Origin: a virus
Strand: one strand, 5' to 3'
IMG/VR virus record: IMGVR_UViG_3300020125_000460
Span: 1 to 22,932 of that record
DNA length: 22,932 bases
The notes below the pieces were generated by a model. The model had not been told where the DNA came from. It did not search any database and saw only the letters and a program-made list of their open reading frames with translations. The stretch's first letter is position 1, and every line of letters starts with the position of its first letter. Shown here one piece after another: positions 2,258 to 17,030 of this stretch. The position numbers and the translations under genes are program-made.

Positions 2258-2321
2258 CCCCGGAAATGGGGTGATGCCCATGTCAGGCCTGCTCATGTCG
2301 CCGCCGACCGACCATAAGAAA

Positions 2322-2347
2322 ACGCCCCTGGCCGTGACCAGAGGCGT
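2322..2347 (-). terminator. Leftward intrinsic terminator candidate
   Basis: ACGCCCCTGG (2322-2331) pairs with CCAGAGGCGT (2338-2347) with one C-A mismatch and a 6-nt loop. Read leftward the stem is followed by TTTTCTT. It would stop leftward transcription before the xre gene, although no leftward gene is visible just to its right. Confidence 0.5.
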
Positions 2348-2351
2348 GGCT

Positions 2352-2393
2352 CGCGACGAGCCTGTAGTTGGCACCCAAACGCGTCGCGCTTTT
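2352..2393 (+). terminator. Rightward terminator-like hairpin after xre
   Basis: CGCGACG (2352-2358) and CGTCGCG (2382-2388) form a perfect 7-bp stem with a 23-nt loop, followed by CTTTTC. The loop contains a small TTGG/CCAA pairing and a copy of the GGCACCCAAAC motif seen before starts of the 13-16 kb operon. It would separate xre from the recombinase promoter. Confidence 0.4.
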
Positions 2394-2431
2394 CAGTATG
2401 CCCGACGGCGCCCAATCCCTGCTGGTGATAC

Positions 2432-2489: not shown

Positions 2490-3974
2490 ATGCAGTTCGA
2501 ATCGACCCGAAATTGGTTGGACCGAACGTCTGCCATGGTACTGAGCCAGTACGACGAGCGTCTCGCTCGTCCCGACCGTCCGCATCTCAATGTCGTCACG
2601 CCGCAGCGCGCCGTCGGCGTCATCCGCGTCTCGAAAGTCGGCAAACGCAAGCTCAAGGGCGAGGAGCATTTCGTCTCCCCGCGCGAGCAGGAGGCAAAGC
2701 TTTCTGAGTGGTGTAAGTCGCAGGGCATCACCCTGACCACCGTTCACAAGGAACTCAATGTCTCGGGCAAGACGCCGCTGGCGAAGCGCACAGGCTTGCG
2801 GCCGGCCATCGAGCAGATAGAGCGCGGTGGCGCCGACATTGTCGTCGTCGCGTACTTTGACCGACTGGTGCGCTCGCTTGCGATTCAGGCCGATGTCCTC
2901 GAGCGTGTCGAGAACGCCGGCGGCAAGGTCGTGGCGCTGGACATCGGCGAAGTCACCAACGAGACCGCCGCGTCCTGGCTAAACGCGACGCTGCACGGCT
3001 TGATGGCTGAATACCATGTCCGCATCACCCGCGAGAAAACCGATGTCGCCCGTCGCGATGCGGTCGCGCGCGGCGTCCCGCCTTTTCCCAACCTGCCGCC
3101 TGGGTATGTCAGGAACACGAGCGGGCAGCTCGTTCCCGTCGATAAAGAGGTGCCTGTCGTGATCGAGGTATTCAGGATGCGCGCCGATGGCGCCTCCCTG
3201 ACGCAGTGCCGCGACTACATGCGCGAGCATGGTATTGACCGTTCTTACCGCGGAACGCAGACGATGTTCTCGAACCGTCTGTACCTGGGGGAGATCCACG
3301 TCGGCAAGTTGGTCAACTTGATGGCCCATGCGCCCATCATCGATCGAGCGTTGTTTGAGCGTGCTCGCGACCGGGTTACGCCGCGAGGGCGGCCATCGAA
3401 ATCAGAGCGGCTCCTGGCCCGCGTGGGGGTGCTGGTGTGCGGCAGTTGTGGTGCGCGGATGACGAATGCCAATGTCTGGAACCGCACCATGAAGAAAGCC
3501 AAGGGTGGCTCTCGTCGCCGTTATGCGCTGTATCGCTGCGGCATGCCTGGTGACTGCCCGTCGCCGGTGACCATTTCCGCAACCCTGGTCGAAGACGCCG
3601 TCGAGCGTGAGGTGCGCCAGCGCCTGATCAACAAGGCGGGCTCAGCCAGTCTGGAACAGGAGATCCGTGGTGCTGCTGCCCAGGCAGATCAAGCGCAGAG
3701 GCGGCTCAAGAATGCCATTGCCCTGCTCACCGGGGACGATCTGGATGATCTCGAGGAGGCGCAGGCGAGGCTTGCAGAGATGCGTGTGGCTGCGCGCGTT
3801 GCGGCTGACCGATACGAGCAGTTGAAGGGCTCAACGGAGCCGCTGACCGTCTTGTCGGCGACTCATGACTGGGAAGAGCTGACTGTGCCTGAGCGACGCG
3901 CCCTTATCCGCGCCGTGCTGCGCCGCGTTGAGATCCACCCCGCTTCTGTGGGAGATCGGATTCGGTTTTACTGA
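2490..3974 (+). CDS. Large serine recombinase (phage integrase)
   Basis: The 494-residue protein has the large serine integrase layout. The resolvase-type catalytic domain has the nucleophile serine in VGVIRVSKVG (S48) and the arginine motif FDRLVRS (123-129). A Recombinase domain follows (about 195-300), then a zinc ribbon with C317, C320, C350 and C356, a coiled coil near 390-440, and a short C-terminal segment. It would catalyse site-specific integration and, with a directionality factor, excision. The first 39 residues precede the catalytic domain. The start is uncertain: ATG 2490 has no ribosome site, ATG 2535 is an in-frame alternative, and the good AAGGGAG site serves an out-of-frame ATG at 2479. 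A promoter, a dyad and a downstream terminator frame the gene as a single unit. Confidence 0.92.
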   Translation: MQFESTRNWLDRTSAMVLSQYDERLARPDRPHLNVVTPQRAVGVIRVSKVGKRKLKGEEHFVSPREQEAKLSEWCKSQGITLTTVHKELNVSGKTPLAKRTGLRPAIEQIERGGADIVVVAYFDRLVRSLAIQADVLERVENAGGKVVALDIGEVTNETAASWLNATLHGLMAEYHVRITREKTDVARRDAVARGVPPFPNLPPGYVRNTSGQLVPVDKEVPVVIEVFRMRADGASLTQCRDYMREHGIDRSYRGTQTMFSNRLYLGEIHVGKLVNLMAHAPIIDRALFERARDRVTPRGRPSKSERLLARVGVLVCGSCGARMTNANVWNRTMKKAKGGSRRRYALYRCGMPGDCPSPVTISATLVEDAVEREVRQRLINKAGSASLEQEIRGAAAQADQAQRRLKNAIALLTGDDLDDLEEAQARLAEMRVAARVAADRYEQLKGSTEPLTVLSATHDWEELTVPERRALIRAVLRRVEIHPASVGDRIRFY

Positions 3975-7061: not shown

Positions 7062-7090
7062 CGGCACCCCACTGGGGTGCCGTCTTTTTG
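7062..7090 (+). terminator. Strong intrinsic terminator
   Basis: CGGCACCCC (7062-7070) and GGGGTGCCG (7074-7082) form a perfect 9-bp stem with a 3-nt loop, followed by TCTTTTTG. It separates the small-gene operon from the replication operon. No obvious new promoter lies in the 30 nt that follow, so partial read-through or antitermination may feed the next operon. Confidence 0.9.
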
Positions 7091-13485: not shown

Positions 13486-13673
13486 GAGCGCGCCTCCTCG
13501 GCCAGGTCGGCCAGGCGCTGATCGTTGTCGATGATGACCTGGCGCAGCGCGGTGAGTGTCTGGACGGCTTGCTCGAGTTCGATTGCGCGATCGAGCGCGT
13601 CCGGCCGCGCCGGGCTGATCTTGATGCTGTTGAGCCTGGCCAGCGCGTAGTCCAGGGCTTGTACGGAGTTCAC
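13482..13673 (-). CDS. 63-aa helical protein
   Basis: The GTG start at 13673 is preceded directly by the start-associated sequence GGCACCCAAAC (rather than by a longer frame from 13916). The product VNSVQALDYALARLNSIKIS continues DRAIELEQAVQTLTALRQVI and ends in a helical, acidic segment. The start also overlaps the TGA of the upstream gene. It resembles small helical accessory proteins; no family is assigned. Confidence 0.65.
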   Translation of the reverse strand: MNSVQALDYALARLNSIKISPARPDALDRAIELEQAVQTLTALRQVIIDNDQRLADLAEEARS

Positions 13674-13825
13674 AGTTTGGGTGCCTTTCGGAATGGGATG
13701 ATGTTGGCCGCCAGCGCTTGGCGACACTGTGGCGAGCATGGCTCCGAGGTATAGAAGTCGCCGCGTGCGGACACCGGAGTCTGGTGTCCGCACGGGTGGT
13801 GCAGGAGCCCGTGCTTGGGGCTCAT
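13670..13825 (-). CDS. 51-aa Cys/His protein
   Basis: The start is ATG 13825 (ATGA overlap, with AGGTG 6 nt upstream). The sequence MSPKHGLLHHPCGHQTPVSA contains HHPCGH, followed later by CSPQC, a likely four-ligand zinc site. Its last codons (KAPKL) are encoded by the start-associated sequence of the next gene, so that motif is both coding and regulatory here. Confidence 0.6.
   Translation of the reverse strand: MSPKHGLLHHPCGHQTPVSARGDFYTSEPCSPQCRQALAANIIPFRKAPKL
13674..13685 (-). promoter_or_regulatory. Start-associated sequence, copy 1
   Basis: On the minus strand GAAAGGCACCCAAACT directly precedes the GTG at 13673. The core GGCACCCAAAC is shared with copies before the starts at 15283 and 15511. 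GAAAGG at about 10 nt could be a weak ribosome site. Confidence 0.6.
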
Positions 13826-14019
13826 GGGCGCACCTGAGATGTCGCGACGCTGCGCGGTCTGTGGGCGATGGCCGGCAACTGGCAGCGATGCCAGTCTGGA
13901 GCCGGTGAGTAGGCACATGTGCGGCACAGGCCCACCCGGTGGGCCGGCTGTGATGGCACCCGGCGCAGTACGTAATCGCAGGCCTCGCCTTGGAATCCGC
14001 AGTCCGCGCAGCGCTTCAC
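13822..14019 (-). CDS. 65-aa zinc-ribbon-like protein
   Basis: GTG 14019 overlaps the upstream stop (GTGA) and has AGGTGG about 5 nt upstream; the frame is longer but the part upstream of this start overlaps the previous gene. The product VKRCADCGFQGEACDYVLRR has CADCG and later CRTCAY (two CxxC pairs) plus a third cysteine pair position, the pattern of a zinc ribbon. It ends in an ATGA overlap. Confidence 0.62.
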   Translation of the reverse strand: MKRCADCGFQGEACDYVLRRVPSQPAHRVGLCRTCAYSPAPDWHRCQLPAIAHRPRSVATSQVRP

Positions 14020-14222
14020 GAGGCCACCTCTGCGGCCTGAGAGCGCTGCGCGAGCTGCTTGCGGGCTCGAGCGAGGCGGACGACCAGGCTCAACGTCGAA
14101 GCTGGCCGCGTATCCATGACAGTGCCCTCGCGAGCGAAGCCGGTGTCGGTCGTGGACCAGACTTCCGTCCAGCCGACGACGACAGCCGGCCTGATGCGGC
14201 GGACAGTGCGACGTTGGCTCAT
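14016..14222 (-). CDS. Hypothetical 68-aa basic protein
   Basis: ATG 14222 overlaps the upstream stop as ATGA and the stop overlaps the next start as GTGA. The product MSQRRTVRRIRPAVVVGWTE is rich in arginine, with a middle GFAREGTVMDTRPAS and a helical end (RLARARKQLAQRSQAAE). No family is recognised. Confidence 0.55.
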   Translation of the reverse strand: MSQRRTVRRIRPAVVVGWTEVWSTTDTGFAREGTVMDTRPASTLSLVVRLARARKQLAQRSQAAEVAS

Positions 14223-14395
14223 GACAGCGGCTCAACCTCATGCGCGAACAGCATCACCTCGGTGCCGTCCGGCTTCTGGCAGACCACCATCGGCTCAACC
14301 CGGACGACCGTCAGCGGCGTGCGCTCCGGGTCAAGCATGGCGTAGATCGTGTCGCCGACTCGCGGGACAATGAACGGGAACTCGTGCGTGTGCAT
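14219..14395 (-). CDS. Hypothetical 58-aa beta-rich protein
   Basis: I chose ATG 14395 because a shortened start-associated sequence (GGCACCCA) directly abuts it; the upstream frame to 14536 would cover a folded leader. The product MHTHEFPFIVPRVGDTIYAM, LDPERTPLTVVRVEPMVVCQ has four or five predicted strands, an SH3- or OB-like small barrel. Function unknown. Confidence 0.65.
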   Translation of the reverse strand: MHTHEFPFIVPRVGDTIYAMLDPERTPLTVVRVEPMVVCQKPDGTEVMLFAHEVEPLS

Positions 14396-14403
14396 TGGGT
14401 GCC
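14396..14403 (-). promoter_or_regulatory. Start-associated sequence, shortened copy
   Basis: Minus strand GAAAGGCACCCA runs straight into the ATG at 14395; the AACC end of the full motif is replaced by the start codon. Confidence 0.5.
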
Positions 14404-14481
14404 TTTCAGGACCGGAAAGATTGCCCCGGACTTTGGACCGGGCGCCGGGCCTTCCACCGGCCAGAGCCGGTGCCATCGGTA
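14404..14481 (-). promoter_or_regulatory. Folded intercistronic leader
   Basis: This 78-nt gap (86 nt with the motif that ends it) is the longest inside an otherwise nearly gapless operon. Read leftward it contains CACCGGC-TCTG-GCCGGTG (14472-14455), a perfect 7-bp stem, then a second GC-rich hairpin around 14435-14451 (GG-CCGG/CCGG-CC) and two CCGG units. No U-tract follows, so it is more likely an mRNA leader structure than a terminator. Confidence 0.45.
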
Positions 14482-14718
14482 TCAGTGGCGCCCCATCACC
14501 CACGCGTACTCCGCGAAGTTCTGGTGATGCCGCCACAGCGCATAGCGGACAGTCTGGCGCCGGATGGCCGGCGTCCAGCGGGGATCCGTCTGGCCGGCCA
14601 TGGCCGCCTCAACCATGCTGACGACGTCAGCGTCAGGCGTGGCCACGTGAACGTGGCCCAACTTCCAATCAATGGCGCGTGTGGGTACCAGCGGGTCTAC
14701 GTGCGGTTTGCGAGTCAT
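14482..14718 (-). CDS. Hypothetical 78-aa protein
   Basis: ATG 14718 lies in an ATGA overlap with the upstream stop; the longer frame from 14820 runs back through that gene. The product MTRKPHVDPLVPTRAIDWKL continues HVHVATPDADVVSMVEAAMA and RQTVRYALWRHHQNFAEYAW, giving a beta strand pair and helices. The style resembles small phage proteins; no function is known. It is followed by the folded leader. Confidence 0.62.
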   Translation of the reverse strand: MTRKPHVDPLVPTRAIDWKLGHVHVATPDADVVSMVEAAMAGQTDPRWTPAIRRQTVRYALWRHHQNFAEYAWVMGRH

Positions 14719-15062
14719 GGCAGCCGGCTCCGGCACATGTCGCATGGGCAATACGCGTCCGGATGGCGCGGGGTGCAGCAGGTGCGACCGGCGAATGTCA
14801 GACGTCCGCAAACCTCGCACGGGACGTCTGTCAAGTCGCCGAGGCGCGGCCGCCCGAGGATCCTGTCCAGACCGGCGGCCGAAGCCGGTTCCGGTTTCAG
14901 GACCGCGGGCGACACTGATGAGCGCGCGAGACCGATTGCGGTCTCGACGGCTGCGCGAGTCTCGGCCTTGATTCTGGACGGCGCGCTCGTGTCATAGGAA
15001 TTGAGATAAAGGTCTGCCTGTTCGAGCGCGGCGAACAATTCCGCGATTAGCTGGTGAGACAT
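14715..15062 (-). CDS. 115-aa protein with C-terminal zinc ribbon
   Basis: The ATG at 15062 overlaps the previous TAA (TAATG). The N-terminal half is helical (MSHQLIAELFAALEQADLYL). The C-terminal half has CEVCGRLTFAGRTCC and later YCPCDMCRS, so four or more CxxC-like cysteines form a zinc ribbon or double-knuckle. It may bind nucleic acid; no named family is assigned. Stop and next start overlap as ATGA. Confidence 0.68.
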   Translation of the reverse strand: MSHQLIAELFAALEQADLYLNSYDTSAPSRIKAETRAAVETAIGLARSSVSPAVLKPEPASAAGLDRILGRPRLGDLTDVPCEVCGRLTFAGRTCCTPRHPDAYCPCDMCRSRLP

Positions 15063-15283
15063 TATCGGAATGCCCCTTGATAGGTGTCACAGCCGGTGCA
15101 ATCCGGCACTGTGCAGACGACTTCGGACAAATCGTCCGCATGGTGAAATGTGCGCGTGAGCGTCCGCAGAGCGGACAGGATGCGGATTTCGCTGGCGTAG
15201 ACATTTCCGCCATTGACGATGGGCCCGTAGGTTTTGAGCGCTTCAATCGCGACACCAATTGCTGTGGTCGTTTCGCTGGACAT
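15062..15283 (-). CDS. Hypothetical 73-aa protein
   Basis: The ATG at 15283 is immediately preceded by the full 12-base GGCACCCAAACC motif. The product MSSETTTAIGVAIEALKTYG has a helical first half and a C-terminal VVCTVPDCTGCDTYQG with three cysteines. The gap to the upstream gene is 15 nt, filled by the motif. Function unknown. Confidence 0.68.
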   Translation of the reverse strand: MSSETTTAIGVAIEALKTYGPIVNGGNVYASEIRILSALRTLTRTFHHADDLSEVVCTVPDCTGCDTYQGAFR

Positions 15284-15295
15284 GGTTTGGGTGCC
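15284..15295 (-). promoter_or_regulatory. Start-associated sequence, copy 2
   Basis: Minus-strand GGCACCCAAACC abuts the ATG at 15283, preceded by AGGAA. It is identical over 12 bases to copy 3. Confidence 0.7.
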
Positions 15296-15298
15296 TTC

Positions 15299-15511
15299 CT
15301 ATTCGCTGAAATAGCCGGGATCCTCAACGGATTCCCCAATGCTGTCGTCAAGGAAGGCGGCCGCGCCTTCCGTGTCGTCGTCGTCCCCGTCCCATCCGAA
15401 TGTCCGCGCGACGCCGGGATAGTCATAGTCGGACTGAATGAGAATCGTCTCGCCGGTATCGCTGGACAGGACGTAATCCCATCCGAAGGTGCCAGATTCA
15501 AGCGTAATCAT
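15299..15511 (-). CDS. Hypothetical 70-aa acidic protein
   Basis: ATG 15511 follows the full start-associated sequence; a frame back to 15670 would overlap the Gp88-like gene. The product MITLESGTFGWDYVLSSDTG continues LIQSDYDYPGVARTFGWDGD and then a DDDD-rich, strongly acidic end. Small acidic phage proteins can mimic DNA or bind host proteins, but there is no specific evidence here. Confidence 0.68.
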   Translation of the reverse strand: MITLESGTFGWDYVLSSDTGETILIQSDYDYPGVARTFGWDGDDDDTEGAAAFLDDSIGESVEDPGYFSE

Positions 15512-15523
15512 GGTTTGGGTGCC
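15512..15523 (-). promoter_or_regulatory. Start-associated sequence, copy 3
   Basis: Minus-strand GGCACCCAAACC abuts the ATG at 15511, preceded by GAGA. Together with a GGCCGC-TTAC-GCGGCC hairpin at 15540-15555 it fills the gap after the Gp88-like gene. Confidence 0.7.
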
Positions 15524-16475: not shown

Positions 16476-16684
16476 GATTCGGCCGCGATCCGGCGTGCCT
16501 GTCGCCGAGCATTGACGAGATACCGATACGTTCGGCCGACGCGGGCGCCGGTAGCGTCCGTAAGAATGTAGAACTGTTCGCCATACTCGCGGGGAGTCGT
16601 CGGCGATGCGATGATGCGCTCGATACGGATGAATCCGTGGCGCGCGGACACGAACGTGCTGTTCGCGATCGGGTTGGGTGCCAT
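16472..16684 (-). CDS. Hypothetical 70-aa protein, first gene of leftward operon
   Basis: The ATG at 16684 lies 7 nt after the -10 hexamer TATATT and has no ribosome site, so it is probably read from a leaderless mRNA. The product MAPNPIANSTFVSARHGFIR, then EYGEQFYILTDATGARVGRT, is beta-rich with a basic helical end. The first codons contain GGCACCCAACC, close to the start-associated motif. It ends in ATGA with the Gp88-like gene. Function unknown. Confidence 0.65.
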   Translation of the reverse strand: MAPNPIANSTFVSARHGFIRIERIIASPTTPREYGEQFYILTDATGARVGRTYRYLVNARRQARRIAAES

Positions 16685-16691
16685 GACAGGG

Positions 16692-16697
16692 AATATA
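16692..16697 (-). promoter_or_regulatory. -10 hexamer of the leftward accessory operon
   Basis: Minus-strand TATATT (16697-16692, 5 of 6 to consensus) ends 7 nt before the ATG at 16684, so transcription should start at the codon. No strong -35 is seen. A palindrome, TATCGATA (16701-16708), lies just upstream, an operator-like place. Confidence 0.5.
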
Positions 16698-16708
16698 GCG
16701 TATCGATA

Positions 16709-17030
16709 GGTATTTGCGCAGGCCTGAACATGAAATCCATATGAGATATGCGCAAGCTGTGGGCGATGCGGCCGCAGCTCCCCTCACGCGTACACAAGGA
16801 TCGCGCGCGAGGCGGACGGCGGCCGCGCCGGCAGCCACCGGGTCAACCGGCAGCTGCGCGCACAGCCGGGGTGGGCATGCGCAGAGAAGGCACCCCTAGG
16901 GTGGGACATGCCCGACGTCTGTGGCCTCGCGGCCCCAGGGGGGGCTCCGGACAGGCAGGATTCGTGCTCGAGCTTGCATTCCAGCCCGATTGGCGACCCA
17001 GCCGGCTTGGTTCGTGCCCGATTGAACTAG
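16709..17030. other. Noncoding region between divergent operons
   Basis: This stretch separates the accessory operon from the virion operon. Frames across it are arginine- and proline-rich and are not credible. It contains a nested inverted repeat, GGGCATG (16873-16879) with CATGCCC (16907-16913), enclosing CACCC-CTA-GGGTG (16891-16903). It also holds a 9-bp direct repeat, GCCCGATTG, at 16984-16992 and 17016-17024, 32 bp apart, close to three helical turns. These may be binding sites for late-gene control. Confidence 0.5.

Follow-up and report, generated by a model that had tools for sequence, protein, structure and literature searches.

The window, the whole stretch of DNA that we analysed, is a 22,932-base IMG/VR fragment with a leftward operon, whose second gene encodes GP88 (PF17338; 15546-16475, minus strand) and is coupled by ATGA to the first. 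The first operon gene starts with ATGGCACCCAACCC (16671-16684, minus strand), and ATGGCACCCAA was found to overlap its ATG at 16684, as the original prediction had stated. Because the -10 element of the operon promoter, TATATT (16692-16697, minus strand), lies only 7 nt before this ATG, the first gene is probably leaderless. Downstream of GP88, a start-associated sequence recurs on the minus strand. Exact 12/12 copies of GGCACCCAAACC abut the starts at 15511, the first gene after GP88 (15512-15523), and 15283 (15284-15295); an 11/12 copy, GGCACCCAAACT (13674-13685), precedes the GTG at 13673, and a shortened form, GGCACCCA (14396-14403), lies directly 5' of the ATG at 14395. All four copies had been claimed beforehand, and they stand far above chance: with up to two mismatches, the motif had 10 matches in the window, compared with 2.46 ± 1.53 (maximum 6) in 100 dinucleotide shuffles. 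Intergenic gaps of 34, 15, and 86 nt precede the motif-bearing starts at 15511, 15283, and 14395, respectively. At 13673, start and upstream stop overlap as GTGA; the remaining internal starts of the operon are coupled by ATGA, GTGA, or TAATG. The motif was therefore present at every gap-preceded start of the leftward operon and, among about ten coupled starts, at 13673 only, which bears out the predicted division of the internal genes. The gap before 14395 also holds a type-P5 twister ribozyme (14426-14480, minus strand; Rfam RF02684, 38.5 bits against a gathering score of 37.6). This was the only Rfam match in the whole window at gathering scores, and the tested operons of relatives gave no Rfam match. 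Elsewhere, the motif and its complement form a terminator-like hairpin, GGCACCCC-ACT-GGGGTGCC followed by a T-run (7063-7081), and the divergent region upstream of the operon contains an inverted repeat, CCCACCCTAGGGGTGCC, with GGCACCC on the plus strand (window 16880-16905; L007 3605-3630).

GAAA, GAGA, or GGAA stands directly 5' of all four upstream motif copies, so that the GG of the motif forms the 3' end of a Shine-Dalgarno (SD) sequence; the forms made with this first GG are GAAAGG, GAGAGG, or GGAAGG, 6-10 nt from the start. The SD duplex reached -7.2 to -8.2 kcal/mol with an actinobacterial 16S tail. The spacer of the motif, CACCCAAACC, is conserved and showed no pairing with 16S. The motif had been described as lacking any anti-SD match; this fails for its 5' GG, which ends an SD, and holds for CACCCAAACC, which 16S pairing does not explain. 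Of the contacts that had been envisaged for the motif, 16S rRNA would be reached via the SD part only, and a phage-encoded RNA best explains the contact.

We took relatives with GP88 from IMG/VR and read twelve records nearly whole. Their gene content varies and their junctions are conserved. The junction after GP88 reads GAGAGGCACCCAAACC-ATG in the window and L007, which carries the motif itself; in other relatives it carries AAAGGATTGGCACC(C), and in six records (L008, L010, L011, L013, L016, and L019) an SD is followed by TTGGCACC(C) and then ATG. The homologue of the gene at 14395 is preceded by GAAGGCACCCA in L009, L011, and L013; in L008, L010, and L019 it overlaps the upstream gene and has no motif. 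Most relatives also share the conserved promoter and a first gene starting ATGGCAC(C/T)C, though the encoded proteins differ. Counting 7-mers at 516 called starts placed GGCACCC third, among SD words, and its occurrence at starts was mainly limited to the GP88 operon. A near-identical pair of phages (window 15062-15511; L007 4862-6083) swaps the genes after GP88 almost exactly at the start-associated sequence, so recombination may also use this junction as a boundary.

In IMG/VR as a whole, the near-exact motif AAGGCACCCAAACCATG had no match, and matches to the shorter AAAGGCACCCAAAC and AAAGGATTGGCACC were mostly due to chance and away from starts, indicating that the element is not a general phage ribosome-binding site (RBS). 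The bare 14-mer likewise had no start association across IMG/VR, and the element is thus lineage-specific. Blastn of the operon and the small RNA region against INPHARED gave no match, and a GP88 search of GTDB genomes gave no informative host. Terminase homology was mainly to Streptomyces, Thermobifida, and Arthrobacter phages and, together with the GC content, suggests an actinobacterial host.

Beside the operon's own copies, a further copy had been predicted near the recombinase. GGCACCCAAACG does lie at 2370-2381, on the plus strand, opposite to the operon copies, and its minus-strand reading gives a GUUUGGGUGCC loop, then a stem, then an intrinsic terminator. We predict here a 75-nt small RNA (sRNA) gene (2316-2390, minus strand), in which stem-loop 1 bears the anti-motif loop. 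The seed GUUUGGGUGCC (2370-2380, minus strand) is the exact complement of GGCACCCAAAC, the start of the first operon gene is complementary to the loop as well, and the terminator hairpin (2322-2347, minus strand) is followed by TTTTCTT. The putative promoter has the -10 element CATACT (2395-2400, minus strand). The large serine integrase gene (2490-3974, plus strand; start 2490 or 2535) is divergent from the sRNA. The region 2250-2450 matched no Rfam family up to E = 1.

The sRNA was found in 11 related actinophage-like phages, beside serine integrases. G002, G003, G005, and G013 have the same layout as the window, non-coding and with a terminator, and an IMG/VR scan with the seed TTGGGTGCCAATCC yielded further records of this layout. 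Among the records retrieved via the sRNA seed, G014, G016, G017, and G018 encode GP88, and the portion of G015 that was read showed no GP88; G019, retrieved via the start motif, has both the sRNA and GP88. Retrieval from the sRNA side and from the motif side agrees. Four motif-bearing records had no sRNA (G001, G004, G007, and G010), and none of them gave an integrase match, so the sRNA region probably lies outside these fragments. A -10-like hexamer (CATACT, TACACT, TAGACT, or CATAGT) occurred in 11 of 11 loci at a distance to the loop that was constant within 1 nt, which suggests that the sRNA is transcribed directly and does not arise by processing. In the loop, GGGUGCCAA is invariant and partly closed by a GGGU/AUCC mini-stem at the apex; the stems vary. 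Both sides were altered in a compensatory way at 7 of the 22 pairs of stem-loop 1 and the terminator, and 84.9% of alignment cells were paired compared with at most 50% after sliding the partners. A covariance model scored the eleven loci at 55-81 bits and everything else in the 620 kb searched at 18 bits or less, its training set containing ten of the eleven loci that it separates. A leave-out model built without the window and G019 recovered the window at 24.7 bits (E 3.4e-5) and G019 at 56.2 bits (E 3e-15).

Serine integrase attP sites often adjoin the integrase gene. The conserved locus could accordingly be attP or another DNA element of the integrase instead of an RNA gene, as its position close downstream of the integrase in nine phages and divergent from it in two would allow, and as the inverted repeat of stem-loop 1 would fit. 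We consider this very improbable. Although the integrases of the window and G005 are only about 20-25% identical to the others, the loop does not vary. The locus also lacks symmetry, having a -10 on its upstream side and a terminator with a T-run on its downstream side, and an att function would predict no matches to gene starts.

Such matches were found. When each genome was compared with its own RNA, the matches were the locus itself, the internal starts of the operon, and the leaderless first gene, with few internal sites in G016. In eight phages (G002, G003, G013, G014, and G016-G019), the leaderless serine integrase start ATGGCACCCA(A/G)(A/G) was also matched; the integrase start of the window has no complement site. 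The integrase messages of these eight phages seem to lack a leader and to have ATGGCACCCA at their 5' ends. Complement sites of the seed nine-mer were near starts in 32 of 52 cases for ten seeds, compared with 5.2 ± 2.6 (maximum 12) in 200 shuffled-seed sets, although the ten phages do not amount to ten independent trials because their seeds are related. An enrichment of the motif at starts, as the original prediction implied, therefore holds within the phage group and not for the bare 14-mer throughout IMG/VR. Pairing of each sRNA with its cognate targets was better than when the assignments were permuted (p 0.006), and for the five targets of the window its own sRNA ranked first of ten, in duplex energies that leave out the structure of both partners. 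Loop and targets have changed together in the window: AAUCC is missing from its loop and GGATT from its internal targets, and pairing runs through AAAC instead. The core motif and the sRNA loop are so highly conserved that the flanks, together with two phages using different words, supply most of the covariation. By its sequence, the locus thus has the marks of a trans-acting sRNA gene, namely its own predicted promoter, an intrinsic terminator, a conserved seed, and targets at translation starts.

Two relatives without the motif have other start words, AGAGTCACC and CAACCGATG, each with a two-hairpin RNA bearing the complement; both relatives are single records. In G008, which scored just above background in the covariance model, the locus (L098 4110-4200) has a -10, a stem-loop with the loop UGGUGACUCUCCU, and a terminator. 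GAGTCAC(C) occurs there at the starts of the leaderless first gene and of the genes at 1308, 1627, 1817, and 2353; the G008 word GAGAGTCACC is also a plain RBS in unrelated phages, where it is common. G011 has an integrase and neither the motif nor its seed. It contains CAACCGATG eight times, compared with 0.29 expected; seven copies are exactly at gene starts, and the single antisense copy belongs to a locus of two hairpins that is divergent from the integrase. Within a word class, pairing was about 4-15 kcal/mol better than with the loops of other classes. Anti-words were not found in G009 and G012, which gave no pair, and a search for RNAs related to those of G008 and G011 gave no clear further two-hairpin member except G008's own record. 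A common architecture in which loop and target have both changed is the strongest argument for the predicted RNA pairing.

The same comparison bears on a simpler reading, in which the motif is only a favourable RBS, an SD with an unstructured C/A-rich spacer, that was copied during cassette exchange and left the antisense copy as a relic. GAAAGG is indeed an SD at a suitable distance, junctions are conserved between relatives that differ in gene content, and other phages are known with well-conserved RBS-like repeats. We nevertheless judge this reading unlikely, since it does not explain why leaderless genes for different proteins share the downstream copy ATGGCACCCAA, why 11 phages have an antisense copy equipped with promoter, hairpin, and terminator, or the matching word switch in G008 and G011.

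We consider it likely that the start-associated sequences are target sites at which an antisense RNA of the phage, acting in trans, represses GP88 operon translation and usually that of the integrase too. The genomes themselves show where the RNA is encoded, how it folds, that it is conserved and complementary to start sites, and that two relatives have different word/anti-word pairs. From these we infer expression of the RNA, a repressing and not an activating effect of the pairing, and a purpose in the control of lysogeny or immunity. With a promoter of its own beside the serine integrase, an RNA of about 75 nt would be transcribed and would fold into a stem-loop presenting GUUUGGGUGCC(AAUCC), followed by an intrinsic terminator. 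The loop of this RNA would pair with the SD and spacer of those internal GP88 operon genes that follow a gap and with the surroundings of the start codon in the leaderless first gene, in most relatives also in the leaderless integrase, and this pairing would block ribosome binding. Motif-less genes, being coupled by overlapping stop and start codons, would be silenced along with the upstream gene, and one short RNA could switch off the whole gene set at once. Translational repression is the natural expectation because the pairing covers the SD and spacer, or a leaderless start codon. Complementarity alone does not give the sign of the effect, and the RNA might instead activate or stabilise its targets, or be titrated by the mRNAs as by a sponge; we find this improbable, as pairing over an SD and spacer or an AUG normally blocks initiation. 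A protein of phage or host might also recognise the word around start codons, as T4 RegA recognises sequence around start codons, with the antisense copy being incidental. The word does occur both upstream of the start codon and just after it, but the antisense RNA gene and the joint change of word and loop in relatives would then need a separate explanation, and this account seems scarcely credible. Returning to repression by the antisense RNA, its position beside the integrase and an HTH-like gene in the window (a weak match) suggest a role in lysogeny.

If this is true, a complementary RNA in the same genomes would give start-associated sequences (SAS) a concrete function, the coordinated translational silencing of a polycistronic phage operon. 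Silencing would reach leadered and leaderless genes alike and, in relatives, the integrase too. Different word/anti-word pairs in related phages would amount to an RNA-based immunity specificity, and such pairs would be simple programmable switches in actinobacteria. A broader reading, conceivable yet on balance doubtful, is that temperate phages of actinobacteria carry lineage-private start words of 9-16 nt on lytic or early genes with one anti-word RNA each, giving word-specific silencing and heteroimmunity, and that the cluster K SAS and a hairpin in phage Anaya are another instance.

SAS have been known in phages since 2011 without an established function (PMC3203893; PMC12699233), and an earlier mention of an anti-SAS RNA is possible. 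The consensus is GGGATAGGAGCCC in cluster K mycobacteriophages (PMC3203893) and GGGAAAGGACCCC in Microbacterium cluster EF phages (PMC7302621). In cluster K, the region homologous to Anaya 59,682-60,066 (intergenic) was matched at least partly in 177 records. It holds a strong conserved hairpin (L460 34845-34912, near 59.87 kb in Anaya, and relatives L461-L465), whose apical loop, CCTCCTATCC, is the complement of the SAS part GGATAGGAGG. In Anaya, Angelica, Peanam, and Validus this loop complements the SAS, and in Amelie it nearly does. Hammy keeps the SAS, and its complementarity is broken because the loop is GCCCTCCTTCCCC; in five cluster K records that are more distant, the stretch read contained no loop of this kind. 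The extension to cluster K is thereby weakened. TM4 had no antisense SAS copy within 2 mismatches. In the cluster EF phage AnnaSerena, SAS sites are present; a search of bases 1-50,000 that allowed 2 mismatches gave no antisense SAS copy, and one of the record that allowed 1 mismatch gave no GGTCCTTTCCC. The cluster K hairpin is possibly an anti-SAS RNA, which we treat as a lead and not as a result.

The analogy to the cluster K SAS, proposed at the outset with a different sequence, is supported, and the motif at starts is conserved in relatives. As in clusters K and EF, a conserved word is repeated at the RBS of several genes, and an SD part (here GAAAGG) is joined to conserved bases unable to pair with 16S (here CACCCAAACC); the same puzzle of a conserved spacer lacking 16S complementarity was reported for the cluster K SAS (PMC3203893). 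In clusters K and EF, 17-bp inverted repeats (ESAS) stand upstream of about half of the sites. The words differ, being GGCACCCAAACC or GAAAGGCACCCAAACC here and conforming to neither GGGATAGGAGCCC nor GGGAAAGGACCCC. In the window's phage group, moreover, the word also occurs just downstream of leaderless start codons, and a candidate antisense RNA with a complementary loop was identified.

Among phage regulatory sRNAs, VpdS of VP882, PreS of lambda, and 24B_1 of phi24B are likewise trans-acting RNAs that steer phage development or the host (PMC12197685). VpdS and PreS differ in binding Hfq and belonging to phages of gammaproteobacteria, and the parts of that review covered here attribute to none of the three any pairing with a start word that is repeated inside one phage operon (PMC12197685). 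The closest likeness is to C4, the antisense immunity RNA of phages P1 and P7, which is phage-encoded, about 77 nt long, and pairs through its loops close to the RBS of the target mRNA; between P1 and P7, loop and target show matching changes, and C4 acts in immunity (PMC5320573). The loop of the window sRNA is similarly complementary to the RBS of its putative target genes. The window sRNA did not match the Rfam covariance model of C4, however, and has two stem-loops, the second being the terminator, where C4 has three. C4 is cut out of a longer transcript by RNase P, whereas the window sRNA has its own predicted promoter and terminator, and its many predicted targets, leaderless starts included, share one word.
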